DNA from: Metallosphaera hakonensis JCM 8857 = DSM 7519
GTDB taxonomy: Archaea > Thermoproteota > Thermoprotei_A > Sulfolobales > Sulfolobaceae
Assembly: GCF_003201675.2 (NCBI RefSeq)
Contig: NZ_CP029287.2
Span: 744,001 to 808,000, forward strand
Reading direction: 5' to 3'
DNA: 64,000 nucleotides
Part shown: piece after piece, positions 11,867-52,772 of the stretch
Position numbering within the stretch: position 1 is the first letter of the stretch
How the letters are laid out: the number at the start of each line of letters is the position of its first letter
The notes under the pieces: model-generated
Seen by the model: only the letters and a program-made list of their open reading frames with translations
What the model was told of the DNA's origin: nothing
Database searches by the model: none
Program-made: the position numbers and the translations under genes

Positions 11867-12718
11867 TTAAAGTGCCCTCGCTACCTTCTTTGTGGCCTCA
11901 GCTATGTCCTTCTCCTGTTCTGCGTACGCGCACAGCATGGCTTCAACGTCCATATGTCCCTCTGCCTTGGCCTTCATGGCCACGTTGTTGTACTCACTGA
12001 CGTGCTCTTCGGCCTCCTCTCTTGTGAACTCATTTAACATGGACGCTACCTTCTTTGTGGCCTCAGCTATGTCCTTCTCCTGTTCTGCGTACGCGCACAG
12101 CATGGCTTCAACGTCCATATGTCCCTCTGCCTTGGCCTTCATGGCCACGTTGTTGTACTCACTGACGTGCTCTTCGGCCTCCTCTCTTGTGAACTCATTT
12201 AACATGGACGCTACCTTCTTTGTGGCCTCAGCTATGTCCTTCTCCTGTTCTGCGTACGCGCACAGCATGGCTTCAACGTCCATATGTCCCTCTGCCTTGG
12301 CCTTCATGGCCACGTTGTTGTACTCACTGACGTGCTCTTCGGCCTCCTCTCTTGTGAACTCATTTAACATGGACGCTACCTTCTTTGTGGCCTCAGCTAT
12401 GTCCTTCTCCTGTTCTGCGTACGCGCACAGCATGGCTTCAACGTCCATATGTCCCTCTGCCTTGGCCTTCATGGCCACGTTGTTGTACTCACTGACGTGC
12501 TCTTCGGCCTCCTCTCTTGTGAACTCATTTAACATGGAGTTCCCAGCGTGAACGTAGAGTTTTTCAAATATCCCTCTGGCATGCCCTAACTCAACCCTTG
12601 CTTTCTCCCTAAGAACCTTAGCTTCCTCCTTCTTTCCTGCAGCCTCTAATTTGTCAGCCAGGAAGCTGAGGAGCATGTAATCCTCAGCATTTGCCTTAAA
12701 TAGTTCCTTTAGACCCAT
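11867..12718 (-). CDS. Ferritin-like (rubrerythrin-type) protein with fourfold internal repeat
   Basis: The first 70 or so residues (MGLKELFKANAEDYMLLSFL to VELGHARGIFEKLY) look like the first two helices of a ferritin-like di-iron protein, with a candidate ExxH in VELGHA. The rest is four copies of a 55-residue helical unit, running from MLNEFTREEAEEHVSEY to EQEKDIAEATKKVA. A single-copy protein of about 118 residues would be a normal small four-helix member, so this gene has grown by three in-frame extra units. The DNA copies are identical. Whether the long protein folds is unknown. The start is uncertain: ATG 12718 fits a strong TATA-like box near 12758, but ATG 12742 and GTG 12751 are also in frame. 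It may act in oxidative stress or iron handling. Confidence 0.7.
   Translation of the reverse strand: MGLKELFKANAEDYMLLSFLADKLEAAGKKEEAKVLREKARVELGHARGIFEKLYVHAGNSMLNEFTREEAEEHVSEYNNVAMKAKAEGHMDVEAMLCAYAEQEKDIAEATKKVASMLNEFTREEAEEHVSEYNNVAMKAKAEGHMDVEAMLCAYAEQEKDIAEATKKVASMLNEFTREEAEEHVSEYNNVAMKAKAEGHMDVEAMLCAYAEQEKDIAEATKKVASMLNEFTREEAEEHVSEYNNVAMKAKAEGHMDVEAMLCAYAEQEKDIAEATKKVARAL
11879..12538. repeat. Perfect 165 bp tandem repeat, 4 copies
   Basis: The units are 11879-12043, 12044-12208, 12209-12373 and 12374-12538, each exactly 165 bp and, as read, identical. The length is a multiple of three, so the reading frame of the ferritin-like gene is kept. Absence of synonymous changes means the expansion is recent or kept uniform by recombination. 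Confidence 0.95.
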
Positions 12719-13362
12719 TTCGGTCTCTTTTCCGAGAGTCATATTGATCACTATATATTAGGAATTATCACAAGCTAATAAACTTTGATTATCGCCCATT
12801 ATAATACATATCCCTTAAAATCAGTAATTGGATTTAAAATAAATAAAACATGTCAACAAGTCTAGCGGTTAATATTAAATGATTTTGAACTATTTAAGTT
12901 TTGAGTATAAAGGTTCAATTTGAGAACCAGGAATCTCCTAGGACTTTCATGGCTCCATACTCTGGTGAGGAATACCCGATAACCGAAACTTGATTCATGA
13001 CAGAACTCCATTGAGTCCCGTTTGAAACTTCTGCTGAACAATCTTCTTCATAAGGAATAGATTCAAAATCGAAGCATATTACGGAAATCTCAGGAGTTCA
13101 ATGGTCGAGGTCGGCAAAAGTCGGCTCATACGACGAGCTCAAACGGTATTATTATCGAACTTCTTCTTGCCCTTTATAACCTGAGCTAGTGTAAATCGAG
13201 GATAAATTAATTATACCTCCTCCACTAATGTCGATGTAAAGTGTAAGCATCAACTTGGGGCATTTGACAAATATCCGTGAACCTTCGCGTGGAAAGATGA
13301 GCAAAGAATCAGGAGGGCTATCCCTGTGATAGGATGGATGATACTCCCTAATGCCATTTGGT
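12719..13362. other. 650 bp intergenic region
   Basis: At the left end is the AT-rich promoter of the ferritin-like gene. A 60-codon open stretch on the minus strand (12915-13097) looks like a gene remnant. The rest shows no gene. A candidate C/D box RNA follows at 13363. Confidence 0.5.
12915..13097 (-). pseudogene. Possible gene remnant
   Basis: This minus-strand frame encodes VICFDFESIPYEED, then WSSVMNQVSVIGYSSPEYG and a stop. It has protein-like composition but no plausible start codon near its beginning and a stop just upstream. The family is not recognised. It may simply be chance. Confidence 0.2.
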
Positions 13363-46790: not shown

Positions 46791-47522
46791 TTAAAGTGAG
46801 ATCAAGAGTTGACCTAAAAATATGGATAATAAGCCTGAAATGAAAATCCCATCGAAAGTCCCCATACCTCCCACACTTATTATCTGGGGTCTAGCCTCTA
46901 GAATCTTCTTTGTATTAAGTAAGTCAGCTCCAACTAAAGTGCCTATAACGCTACTTACATAAGCCGACATTGGGACTAATATGGGCTCATGAAAGAAAAG
47001 GATGTAACTCAATAGAACGGAAAATACGGGCGCAATTAGTGGGTTCATTACAACTCCCACTCCGTTTACGACCTTAGAGAATACCTTCGATATCAAAATT
47101 AGGACGAGAATGTCAATTAAGACAAATATTTTTTCTGGCATTAGAATAAGAAGGGTTATCGACAGGAGAAGAGGGATTATGGCGCCACCAATATTAAATG
47201 CGAAAAGAGTCTTCACTCTAGATCTCTCCAACCTCGGGACGTAAATGGGAAATCCAAACACGTACATCACATCATATTCAGGCACAATCACAGGGTTCTC
47301 AAATTCCTTAACAACTACGTTTACTGGGCTTAACGCCAAGCTCAAAAACGAGATTTCCACAGCTAAAGCGTAACCGAGGCTCGGAGGAAAACCAGCGTAA
47401 ACAAGTAGATCTCGAAAGTAACTTATCGATATAACTAACAGAATTAAACTTAAGATGAGATATACGGGAAAGATTAGCCCCCTTACGGGCGAGATTATTA
47501 TGATTCTATCCAAGTATCTCAA
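46791..47522 (-). CDS. DUF1614 membrane protein
   Basis: This 243-residue protein has about seven hydrophobic segments, and its C-terminus IISVGGMGTFDGIFISGLLS matches the DUF1614 signature (GGxGTFDGIFxxG). Function unknown. It overlaps the cobY-like gene by four bases and follows it on the same strand; the family occurs near cobamide or nucleotidyltransferase genes in some archaea, but the link is not proven. Confidence 0.75.
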   Translation of the reverse strand: MRYLDRIIIISPVRGLIFPVYLILSLILLVISISYFRDLLVYAGFPPSLGYALAVEISFLSLALSPVNVVVKEFENPVIVPEYDVMYVFGFPIYVPRLERSRVKTLFAFNIGGAIIPLLLSITLLILMPEKIFVLIDILVLILISKVFSKVVNGVGVVMNPLIAPVFSVLLSYILFFHEPILVPMSAYVSSVIGTLVGADLLNTKKILEARPQIISVGGMGTFDGIFISGLLSIFLGQLLISL

Positions 47523-48090: not shown

Positions 48091-49158
48091 ATGGACAGAG
48101 TTATCATTGTTGGAGGAGGAAATGGAGGGACTGTAGTGGCAAACAGGCTTAGCGGGAAAGGCTTAGACGTCACTGTAATCGAGCCTTTAGACTACCATCT
48201 TTATCAACCAGGAATGGTTGATTATGTACTGGGGGAAGAGACTGAAGAGTCTATAGTTAGGACTCTAGACTCCTTACTTCCCGTGAAAAGGATGAAGGGA
48301 AGAGTGACGAAGGTAGACGTTGAAAATCATTCAGTCTTTATGGGAGATGAAAGGGTAGAGTATGATTATCTCGTTCTAGCTCCTGGCGTAATCAGTAAAA
48401 GACTCGAGGGAAGCTATGGTTGGCATACCCTTGAAGAAGGAAAGAAGTTGAGGGAGGATGTTTCTAACTTCTCTGGTAAGTCTATTGTTGTCGGCTATTC
48501 GGGGGTTATAAAATGCCCTGCTGCCCCATTTGAGTTTTCCTTCCTATTAAAGGAAAAGTTCCCCAAAGCTCAAGTTACGCTTCTTAATCCAGTAACGAAT
48601 CCTCCTGAGATTCAAAGACCCATGGCGGAAGCCTTTGGGAAGAAGTCTAAGGAGCTTGGAATAGAGGTCAAACGTGGATTCAAAATAGCTAGAATAGACC
48701 AAGCGAGTAAGGTTATTGAGTCTGACTCAGGTGAGAAGGTATCCTATGACTTGGCTCTAATAGACCCTCCAGTGAAAGTCGGTGAGGAGTTTAAGGATTT
48801 AACCGATCAATCTGGTTTCATCCCAGTGGATAGGAGCACATTGAGGTACAGAAATTACGATAACGTCTATGTAATAGGTGACGCTAACAATATCCTGACT
48901 CCGCCGAAAACTGGATCCAAAGCCCATTACGAAGCAAAGATAGTTGCGGATAACATTATTGCAAGTGTCAAAGGTGGGGAGAGAAAGAACTATGATGGGA
49001 GTGCCATATGCGCAGTATACGCTAGTTCCAAGAAAGGATACCTGATTAGAATGAACTTTGAGAAAAGCAATATATACGGAGCTTCACCATTATTTTACGA
49101 AATGAAGAAAATGTTCACTCATATGTACTGGGCCTCATTAAGGGGATTTTTCCCTTAA
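48091..49158 (+). CDS. Sulfide:quinone oxidoreductase-like flavoprotein
   Basis: This 355-residue FAD-dependent oxidoreductase starts RVIIVGGGNGGTVVANRLSG (FAD GxGxxG). DYLVLAPGVISKRL follows, and VIKCPAAPFEFSF near residue 142 matches the Cys-containing loop of SQR proteins. NVYVIGDANN is the second FAD motif. Only one other Cys (SAICAV) is seen, so the three-Cys sulfide site is incomplete and sulfide oxidation is not certain. It may feed electrons into the quinone pool in a sulfur-oxidising organism. Confidence 0.75.
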   Translation: MDRVIIVGGGNGGTVVANRLSGKGLDVTVIEPLDYHLYQPGMVDYVLGEETEESIVRTLDSLLPVKRMKGRVTKVDVENHSVFMGDERVEYDYLVLAPGVISKRLEGSYGWHTLEEGKKLREDVSNFSGKSIVVGYSGVIKCPAAPFEFSFLLKEKFPKAQVTLLNPVTNPPEIQRPMAEAFGKKSKELGIEVKRGFKIARIDQASKVIESDSGEKVSYDLALIDPPVKVGEEFKDLTDQSGFIPVDRSTLRYRNYDNVYVIGDANNILTPPKTGSKAHYEAKIVADNIIASVKGGERKNYDGSAICAVYASSKKGYLIRMNFEKSNIYGASPLFYEMKKMFTHMYWASLRGFFP

Positions 49159-49254: not shown

Positions 49255-49264
49255 AGTCTAGACT
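49255..49264. promoter_or_regulatory. AGTCTAGACT palindrome (SegB-site-like)
   Basis: This perfect 10 bp palindrome lies downstream of the segB-like gene. It matches the central part of GTAGAGTCTAGACTGA, the SegB site I recall from Sulfolobus. A second perfect copy with longer arms is at 54227-54240. Confidence 0.45.
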
Positions 49265-49398
49265 CTTCGGTTACTGGATTTAAGTAGGTCCTAGGAAGGG
49301 CAATCTGATTGAATAGATCAACATAAGGGGTTTCATGAGAGGAATACAAATTAGAAATGCTTATTGAACAAGTTAATATAAACCTGAATATCTATCAG

Positions 49399-50301
49399 TT
49401 ACTTTAACAGCCCCTTCTTCCTGGAGAGCTCTTCAGCTTTAGAATAAAGGTCAGGAAATAGTTGTCTCATTCCTAATTCTAGGGCCTCCTTGGCTATCTT
49501 GCTCATTTTAAATCCAGGCTTTACATGATAGAGGTATTGAAGAACGATGTAGCTGGGATAACTCCAAACGCCAATTTTTGGATCCTTATCTAGGAAGTTT
49601 TCCATAAGATCTAGGTTCACTGAAGAGCTTTCCTGTGCGATCCCAGTCCCCACATAAGATACCGCTCTAGACTCAGGAGTTCTCACTATACCAGTAGAAT
49701 CTAGAGTAATATCTATAGTAGTCTGTGCTCCACTCTCTCCTCCCTGAACTCTACTCTCTACTCTCTGTGCTCCACTCTCTCCTCCCTGAACTCTACTCTC
49801 TACTCTCTGTGCTCCACTCTCTCCTCCCTGAACTCTACTCTCTACTCTCTGTGCTCCACTCTCTCCTCCCTGAACTCTACTCTCTACTCTCTGTGCTCCA
49901 CTCTCTCCTCCCTGAACTCTACTCTCTACTCTCTGTGCTCCACTCTCTCCTCCCTGAACTCTACTCTCTACTCTCTGTGCTCCACTCTCTCCTCCCTGAA
50001 CTCTACTCTCTACTCTCTGTGCTCCACTCTCTCCTCCCTGAACTCTACTCTCTACTCTCTGTGCTCCACTCTCTCCTCCCTGAACTCTACTCTCTACTCT
50101 CTGTGCTCCACTCTCTCCTCCCTGAACTCTACTCTCTACTCTCTGTGCTCCACTCTCTCCTCCCTGAACTCTACTCTCTACTCTCTGTGCTCCACTCTCT
50201 CCTCCCTGAACTCTACTCTCTACTCTCTGTGCTCCACTCTCTCCTCCCTGAACTCCTTCATTCTTTTTCTTCCTTTTAAGTAGAAAGTCTATCTCACTCA
50301 C
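49399..50301 (-). CDS. segB: SegB-like partition protein with 14-residue tandem repeats
   Basis: This 300-residue protein starts from GTG 50301, overlapping the segA stop by eight bases. After a basic start (EIDFLLKRKKKNEG) come about 12.7 copies of VQGGESGAQRVESR, a charged disordered-looking array (about residues 16-192), then a linker and a C-terminal ribbon-helix-helix-like domain (PSYIVLQYLYHVKPGFKMSK and KIAKEALELGMRQLF). SegB proteins I know of are about 110 residues, so this one is nearly tripled by the array. The gene pair and the RHH-like end support SegB; the identification rests on context. The ORF also reaches ATG 50340, inside segA. Confidence 0.65.
   Translation of the reverse strand: MSEIDFLLKRKKKNEGVQGGESGAQRVESRVQGGESGAQRVESRVQGGESGAQRVESRVQGGESGAQRVESRVQGGESGAQRVESRVQGGESGAQRVESRVQGGESGAQRVESRVQGGESGAQRVESRVQGGESGAQRVESRVQGGESGAQRVESRVQGGESGAQRVESRVQGGESGAQRVESRVQGGESGAQTTIDITLDSTGIVRTPESRAVSYVGTGIAQESSSVNLDLMENFLDKDPKIGVWSYPSYIVLQYLYHVKPGFKMSKIAKEALELGMRQLFPDLYSKAEELSRKKGLLK
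49724..50255. repeat. 42 bp tandem repeat, about 12.7 copies
   Basis: The array has twelve full 42 bp units and one 28-base partial unit, all identical as read. The unit encodes 14 residues, so frame is preserved. There are no spacers, which rules out CRISPR. The plus strand is also fully open through the array, simply because of the periodicity. Confidence 0.95.
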
Positions 50302-50956
50302 TAAGTGCCACCTTGGCAAGCTCCTCGTAAAGCCTTCCAACCCTAGGTCTCTTCAATTTAATTTCCTCATATCTAGACGCCGGAACCCCAAGTCTAGAGG
50401 ATTCAGAGAAGAGTTTGGATGGGGGTATTGATAACTGAACGAACTTTACGGCCTTGAGATCTAACTCCAGCGGTCTCTTGGACATGCTGGCGAACGCGAT
50501 AGCCTTCTTCTCTAGACTCTGTAACCTGGAGTCTAGGTTTCTTACAGCCTCGATAGCTAGAGGTTGAGGAGTTACGGGGGAGACGACCTTATCCGCTGAA
50601 ATCATCGAAGCCACTGCCAGTGTACCCAAATTTGGAGGTGTATCTATTACAAGGACGTCAAAGTTCTCTGCAACGCTCTTCACGGACTTTACCACATCTT
50701 CAACCTCTCCTCCAAGCTCCAGTTTTAAGAGCCCGAGATGTGCTGGAAACACCTCAATGTTGAATATGTTCACGCTTTTGTCTCCTATCCCATACTCTTT
50801 CTTATCTCTTCGTATCCCAAAGGAGAAGGAAGTTCCTCCTTCCGGGTCCATGTCTAGAAGTCCAACGTTCTTCTGCTTAGATAAGACGTAGGCTAGATTA
50901 ACAGCCGTGGTTGTTTTTCCTACTCCACCTTTCTGATTAATAACTGTCACAATCAT
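50294..50956 (-). CDS. segA: SegA/ParA-type partition ATPase
   Basis: This 220-residue Walker-type ATPase starts MIVTVINQKGGVGKTTTAVN (deviant Walker A with the signature Lys, GGVGKTT), with LLDMDPEGG for switch I and VLVIDTPPNL for Walker B. It lacks a long N-terminal DNA-binding extension, as in SegA of Sulfolobus. With SegB it would move and segregate chromosomes. A 21 bp inverted repeat lies directly upstream of the ATG. Confidence 0.88.
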   Translation of the reverse strand: MIVTVINQKGGVGKTTTAVNLAYVLSKQKNVGLLDMDPEGGTSFSFGIRRDKKEYGIGDKSVNIFNIEVFPAHLGLLKLELGGEVEDVVKSVKSVAENFDVLVIDTPPNLGTLAVASMISADKVVSPVTPQPLAIEAVRNLDSRLQSLEKKAIAFASMSKRPLELDLKAVKFVQLSIPPSKLFSESSRLGVPASRYEEIKLKRPRVGRLYEELAKVALSE

Positions 50957-51755: not shown

Positions 51756-52772
51756 TCATCTCAATTCATGGGTCTCAATACTCAGCAAATCTGCCAAATG
51801 AATTGGCCTGAATCCCTTGAAGGCTAAGGCAATAGAACAGGCTGGGTTTGTCGAGACTACTAGGTTAACTCCACTTTTCTTCACCTTTTCAGCCTTGATC
51901 TCCATGACTCTATCGGCTATTTCAGGGTGATAAATGAAGTATCCGCCGCCAGCGCCACATTCAAAGGACGGTTCGTCCATCTCCCTAACGTTTATGCCCA
52001 GCCTCTCAATCACTCTTCTTGTTGTCTTGTTGATTCCGAGGAGATTGGCGTGACATGGATCGTGCAAAGTCACCGTGAGGTTAATCTTTTCGTCCTTGAG
52101 CTCATTTAAAGCGAACTCAGAAAAGTCCTCAACTTGAAGTCCCATCTCCCTCATATGGGCAGTGCAGTTAGATGATAACGAAACGACTCTTCTTCCCCTG
52201 AACTTCTCTTTCAAACCTCTGATCAGGAACTCACTCCTGTCTTTATCCCCTTCACTATAATGTGACAGACCGCAACAACCGTTAACCACTTCAACCTTGT
52301 AACCCTTTGATTTGATAAAGTTCAGAGCCCTTTCCACTGTCTTCCTGAAGGAAATCGACATTAAACAGCCGGGAAAAAGGATCAGGTCTGGACTCTCGTC
52401 TCTATACTCTAGAGGCTTCTCCACCGAAGGGAGAAGACTGTGTACCCTTTTCAAGAGCGGGGAGTTTAGACCCTTGCTTGACCTAATTAATCTAAAGGCA
52501 ATAGATGGTTTCTCCATAATTACGTTAACGGCCTTCTTTAATGGCGCCTCTTTTCTAACGTTATGAATCAGCTTACCATACTCGACCCCACTGGGACAGG
52601 CTAGTTCGCATCTTCTACAGAACATACAGGTCTCTATTCCCTCGGATTGGACTGCGAGGCGGACAGACGTTATTCTTCCTCTGGGAGAGTGAATCTCAGA
52701 CCTCGTGACCACGTAGGTGGGACATGCCTCGAGACAGAAACCGCAGTGAACGCATGTGTCCTCTAATCCCAT
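51756..52772 (-). CDS. glcF: Glycolate oxidase iron-sulfur subunit (GlcF-like)
   Basis: This 338-residue protein has two [4Fe-4S] motifs, CVHCGFCLEACPTY and CMFCRRCELACPSG, then two CCG domains (LFPGCLMS to NGCCGLSHYSEGD and HDPCHANLLG to FECGAGGGYF). It would accept electrons from the GlcD/GlcE FAD subunits. It overlaps the end of glcD by ten bases. ATG 52772 is chosen; a TTG at 52811 adds 13 residues. Confidence 0.88.
   Translation of the reverse strand: MGLEDTCVHCGFCLEACPTYVVTRSEIHSPRGRITSVRLAVQSEGIETCMFCRRCELACPSGVEYGKLIHNVRKEAPLKKAVNVIMEKPSIAFRLIRSSKGLNSPLLKRVHSLLPSVEKPLEYRDESPDLILFPGCLMSISFRKTVERALNFIKSKGYKVEVVNGCCGLSHYSEGDKDRSEFLIRGLKEKFRGRRVVSLSSNCTAHMREMGLQVEDFSEFALNELKDEKINLTVTLHDPCHANLLGINKTTRRVIERLGINVREMDEPSFECGAGGGYFIYHPEIADRVMEIKAEKVKKSGVNLVVSTNPACSIALAFKGFRPIHLADLLSIETHELR

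Follow-up and report, generated by a model that had tools for sequence, protein, structure and literature searches.

Why does segB of Metallosphaera hakonensis carry a long, perfect tandem array within its coding sequence, and does this array matter as protein or as DNA? We examined this locus in a window of 64,000 nucleotides (contig NZ_CP029287.2, positions 744,001 to 808,000), and coordinates are those of the window unless stated otherwise. The segB coding sequence (49399..50301, minus strand) has a GTG start at 50301 and specifies 300 aa. It is directly preceded by segA (50294..50956, minus strand), which encodes a ParA-type ATPase (ParA/AAA_31, E 1.4e-27) and whose stop at 50294 overlaps the segB start by 8 nt. 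Comparison with PDB sequences using phmmer matches the C-terminal 75 aa of the segB product to the solved SegB structures 7duv (E 4e-24) and 7dv2, the SegB ribbon-helix-helix (RHH) domain being encoded at 49402..49626 (minus strand). This match, and the position next to segA, bear out the SegB-like C-terminus proposed in a preliminary description of this stretch. The array, located by TRF at 49722..50255 (minus strand) with period 42, 12.7 copies, 100% match, 0% indel and a score of 1068, encodes 14-aa polar repeats (VQGGESGAQRVESR) between a basic start (VSEIDFLLKRKKKNEG, 50254..50301, minus strand) and the C-terminal domain, again as had been described, and the identity of its copies agrees with the recent homogenisation suggested there. 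The basic N-terminal motif is conserved, reading [MV]SELDFLLxxKK in relatives, where almost every SegB protein compared shows it on visual inspection; in M. hakonensis this SELDFLL-KK motif is present as VSEIDFLLKRKKK. No domain is named by Pfam or NCBIfam in the repeat region, matches there to tropomyosin and SMC proteins were dismissed as low-complexity noise, and the 42-bp DNA unit has no further occurrence in the 2.54 Mb genome. Two long antisense frames (184-192 aa) are also open across the array (49725-50279, plus strand), as is expected of a perfect 42-bp repeat, and there is no evidence of a gene here.

The protein repeats themselves have been published before: direct repeats of 14 aa are a feature of Metallosphaera SegB in the work of Kabli et al. 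2025 (PMC12284271), the largest example being the 300-aa protein of M. hakonensis with 12.5 identical repeats, which is very likely the protein considered here. In the open-access literature that we searched, that paper is the only source for tandem repeats in SegB of this genus. The repeats are read there as a protein fold: a beta-helix is predicted by AlphaFold2 (AF2), membrane association is offered as a speculation, and the published dimer models disagree with one another. In the main text of that paper we found no mention of a 7-bp DNA periodicity, of Sulfolobales archaeon HS-7 or of a nonsense-frame control. The present analysis adds a cross-species survey of the arrays that includes HS-7, an AF2 control on a nonsense frame, and a 7-bp AGA(G/C) signal at the DNA level, which was overlooked in the preliminary description.

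Searching 229 genomes of the class identified SegB in 30 at the threshold used, all of them Sulfolobaceae, and these 30 SegB-bearing genomes were compared. Perfect 42-bp segB arrays are present in five of six Metallosphaera species, with differing units in 3.9-12.7 copies. Besides M. hakonensis these are M. sedula (10.9 copies, VQGGESGGQRVESR), M. javensis AS-7 (3.9 copies, encoding the same peptide as in M. sedula), the Metallosphaera genome G004 (8.5 copies, VQSGESVEKRTEGR) and M. cuprina (11.0 copies, VQGVDNSPQRVDNR); segB of M. yellowstonensis has no perfect array. Arrays of the same period occupy the same place in independent genomes of four other species, and it is therefore improbable that the array arose from misassembly, although this does not extend to the exact number of copies in the strain. 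Array units are identical within species and different between species, which is the signature of concerted evolution. In another genus, HS-7 has an independent, perfect array of 13.2 copies of a 36-bp unit (KGLESTLKREEE) at the same place in segB (L052:2504-2980). The expansion proposed in the preliminary description is thus upheld by the identical copies, but with five of six species affected and an analogue in a second genus it is more than one strain's recent accident. The length of about 110 residues given there for SegB holds mainly for Saccharolobus, the Saccharolobus-type frames (genus g6) having 109-138 aa and no arrays; open frames in related genera reach 120-190 aa, however, and long SegB proteins have been published.

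The M. hakonensis unit divides into six 7-bp steps (GAGTAGA, GAGTAGA, GTTCAGG, GAGGAGA, GAGTGGA and GCACAGA), so that the coding strand of segB carries six AGAS-like half-site steps in every unit and about 76 in all. The steps are degenerate, and four-step heptad matches with one mismatch are found throughout the array. Since 7 is not a multiple of 3, such a rhythm is not demanded by protein repetition alone. Lag-7 self-match of the unit is 25/42 compared to 16.9 for synonymous recodings (P 0.005), and the same comparison gives P values of 0.0008 for M. sedula, 0.008 for M. javensis and 0.0008 for G004. Under this synonymous null, lag-7 self-match is not significant in the units of M. cuprina or HS-7. 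Heptad tests of the M. cuprina array give P 0.10-0.22, short of significance; the unit of HS-7, at 36 bp, is not a multiple of 7 and lacks an AGAS pair at exactly 7 bp. In the array unit TAGAS scores 25/30 in 7-bp phase (P 0.0004), and the period-6 control is not significant. Unit-level P values are given throughout, whole-array z-scores being inflated by identical copies; they are partly post hoc because the heptad idea came from the array units, so that the tests on linkers and genomes are cleaner, and the units of the array species share ancestry and hence are not independent of one another. Mere codon usage or protein repetition was rejected as the source of the periodicity, proving insufficient under synonymous draws and codon permutation. 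Moreover, all 13 residues shared by the units of M. hakonensis and M. sedula use the same codon (13/13), as against 44% (P 2e-5) for codons of segA and the RHH domain, and 12/13 unit codons are identical between M. hakonensis and M. javensis (P 6e-4). Because homogenisation by itself is not expected to retard synonymous change, this conservation suggests constraint on the DNA itself.

The 7-bp AGA(G/C) signal extends beyond the arrays, to non-array segB linkers of related genera and to segA, in excess of synonymous nulls. With codons permuted among synonymous positions as reference, non-array segB linkers hold 40 AGAS pairs at lag 7 against 12.5 (z 8.7), and 144 at all multiples of 7 against 51, a count that 0/1000 permutations reach. 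Plain autocorrelation of 15 non-array linkers places lags 7, 14, 28 and 35 as the top four of 22, and random sets of 15 pieces of window genes did not reach the linker value in 5000 draws. A plain autocorrelation signal at lags 7 and 14 is also present in segA. The RHH domain of segB shows no comparable plain periodicity, and the 7-bp AGAS signal is absent from the short segB linkers of genus groups g6, g7 and g11. In the non-array linkers, the three-base stretches that separate successive heptads resemble one another no more than randomly drawn pairs do (likeness 1.00 versus 0.91 of 3), which argues against a simple slippage relic, and this origin of the heptads was rejected.

Across genomes, we defined a four-heptad cluster as (AGASNNN)x3 AGAS, allowing one mismatch at most, outside arrays. 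There are 73 such clusters in 27 genomes, and 28 of the 73, in 14 genomes, lie within 10 kb of segB, where 0.59 are expected; with 8-bp spacing as a control, 0/61 clusters are near segB. The binomial P for this proximity (3e-39) ignores the fact that some clusters are orthologous, and the contrast with the 8-bp control outweighs it for that reason. Near segAB the bases between heptads lean toward T-V-W, i.e. TVWAGAS, which is compatible with TCTAGAS, and T at the second between-heptad place falls to 1% from 23% elsewhere. A heptad matrix built without Metallosphaera, from 21 clusters in other genera, when scored against synonymous recodings, gives P values of 0.005 for the M. hakonensis unit, 0.003 for M. 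sedula, 0.004 for M. javensis and 0.0006 for G004, with 0.10 for M. cuprina and 0.03 for HS-7; scores on the opposite strand of the array units are strongly negative. One heptad string, ATACGTCAGACAGAAGAC with its variants, recurs at G011 2976600, G008:C6 99263, G018 571389 and G025:C93 18482; in two of these four genomes its distance from segAB is about 16-18 kb, and it is possibly a conserved distal SegB site.

Within the 64-kb window, the best places for six heptads outside the array are all around segAB, which is not singled out likewise by other spacings. They comprise an exact four-heptad cluster in a neighbouring Fe-S protein gene (AGAGTATAGAGACGAGAGTCCAGAC, 52386..52427, minus strand), which has similar exact counterparts near segB in four other Metallosphaera; matches in a neighbouring FAD-oxidoreductase-like gene (48236..48277, plus strand), at 50372 (plus strand) and at 46868..46909 (minus strand); and a site in segA (50503..50544, minus strand). 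The last of these is also a SegB-like site; it falls within codons specifying LDSRLQSLE, roughly 235-245 bp ahead of the segB start, and recurs in most Sulfolobaceae examined. Two further SegB-like sites are of the palindromic kind: a near-consensus one beside the array and inside segB (GTAGAATCTAG, 49694..49704, plus strand; 793694 in genome coordinates), with 10/11 matches to STAGASTCTAS, and one downstream of segB (CTAGACTCTTC, 49258..49268, plus strand; 10/11).

How, then, do the heptads relate to known SegB sites? The published SegB motif (TCTAGASTCTAGA) has the core AGASTCT, of which the AGA(G/C) of the arrays is one half, and AGA recurs at 7 bp within the motif; the S1 oligonucleotide, which has been used experimentally, has AGAG and AGAC 7 bp apart. 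The sites of Saccharolobus and Sulfolobus (TCTAGASTCTAGA; STAGASTCTAKAG) share with the array the AGA(G/C) half-site, the 7-bp spacing, the clustering around segAB and a mostly intragenic location, but they are discrete palindromes whereas the Metallosphaera array consists of direct half-sites only. The palindromic 13-mer is matched at 9/13 in Metallosphaera units, which is not above the synonymous null (P 0.12-0.54), and the reading of the array as a run of full palindromic sites was rejected for this genus. Each HS-7 copy contains TCTAGAGTCCACA, with 11/13 matches to the SegB motif (P 0.03 under the same null). Because the full palindrome is missing from Metallosphaera units, any binding there would rest on half-sites and cooperativity. 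Kabli et al. 2025 (PMC12284271) describe SegB sites that adjoin one another in a single footprint, sites inside genes and, in S. acidocaldarius, sites in segAB itself. In the open-access literature searched, nothing was found on binding or genetics of Metallosphaera SegB, and SegB, heptads and archaea came up together only in a ParA-family review.

A close parallel is with plasmid pSM19035 (PMC9499535), in which an RHH-type ParB occupies contiguous 7-bp repeats and four or more of these are needed for full activation of the ParA ATPase. The segB array likewise contains four or more contiguous, degenerate 7-bp half-site repeats, as in a centromere of the pSM19035 parS type. As judged from sequence, both systems combine an RHH centromere-binding protein, a ParA-type ATPase and contiguous 7-bp repeats, although the heptad sequence differs. 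The parS of pSM19035 is a separate DNA site and does not itself encode the protein that binds it.

On this basis we favour, with a probability of roughly 0.52, the reading that the array is a centromere-like run of SegB-type heptads embedded in segB and translated through as a polar linker. The array DNA would act as a long run of AGA(G/C) half-sites spaced by 7 bp, like the heptad clusters that mark the segAB locus across Sulfolobaceae, and SegB RHH dimers might sit side by side and cooperatively on neighbouring heptads, by analogy with the RHH ParB of pSM19035. We infer that SegB may bind degenerate heptads in this manner and that the array may have centromere function; the gene would then offer a nucleation site of centromere-like type near segA, and no other landing pad at the locus would be as dense as the array. 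Translated, the same DNA would give a polar, net-neutral linker joining the SELDFLL-KK motif to the DNA-binding domain. In this view, a portion of the centromere-like landing pad of the chromosome may lie within segB itself. Since 42 is divisible by 3 and by 7, gain or loss of a unit preserves the reading frame and the heptad phase. The fuller proposition, in which a centromere-like array lies inside the gene of its own binding protein, the linker codons are dual-coded with up to about 76 heptads in Metallosphaera, and the 42-bp unit is kept as the common multiple of codon and heptad, is more tentative, and we place it a little below even odds. Its real difficulty is HS-7, whose 36-bp unit does not hold the heptad phase, which weighs against a strict 42-bp rule. 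These ideas touch on how archaea mark the DNA that is segregated by SegAB. If they are correct, SegB sites would also take the form of 7-bp-spaced clusters, as for RHH plasmid ParBs, rather than isolated palindromes only, the densest SegB heptad cluster would sit inside segB, and the "protein repeats" of the SegB family would be a by-product of a DNA code.

Other explanations take the protein, or nothing at all, to be what is selected. A disordered spacer role for the array, as proposed in the preliminary description, is plausible given its composition, and in its strict form this explanation holds that a disordered polyampholyte tether extends the reach of SegB or aids clustering of SegA and DNA-bound SegB, the DNA sequence being irrelevant. 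The units do vary by species yet stay polar and net neutral (2E2R, 2D2R and 3E1K2R by count), the unrelated unit KGLESTLKREEE is at the same place in HS-7, and the flanking N-terminal motif and RHH domain are conserved. A spacer acting only as protein predicts neither the 7-bp spacing of AGAS nor the conservation of unit codons, however, nor the same signal in segA and unrelated neighbouring genes, and we regard it as unlikely. Neutral slippage in a permissive linker, by which 7-bp repeats resembling SegB sites were expanded and then homogenised by unequal recombination to a functionless length, would account for the perfect copies, for copy numbers from 3.9 to 12.7 and for M. yellowstonensis having no perfect array. 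Against this stand the retention of arrays in five species at a constant 42-bp period, the unlike bases between the heptads of non-array linkers, and unit codons that are more conserved than those of segA; we consider this explanation rather improbable.

The folded beta-helix of Kabli et al. 2025 (PMC12284271), which would connect SegB with the membrane or a partner, appears highly improbable. When AF2 is run on M. hakonensis SegB (no alignment), beta-strands are indeed obtained over the array with pLDDT of about 80-90 (pTM 0.62 overall), in line with the published prediction. Nevertheless, when the HS-7 array is translated out of frame (GREGSRVHTEER repeats) and submitted to the same pipeline, the predicted solenoid is more confident still (mean pLDDT 87, pTM 0.83), and AF2 is known to give such folds to perfect random repeats (Pratt et al. 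2025, PMC11795689). Because AF2 is more confident on this nonsense frame, the published beta-helix is no evidence of function, and the main support for the beta-helix and membrane-tether model is thereby removed; the mutually inconsistent dimer models in that paper also count against it.

A second protein-coding array is present elsewhere in the window, in the gene at 11867-12751 (minus strand), where four perfect copies of a 165-bp (55-aa) stretch occupy 11879-12538. The protein is small and, by eye, ferritin-like in appearance. Its orthologues in all five other Metallosphaera species have one or two further copies of that stretch, so that the domain duplication is genus-wide there also.
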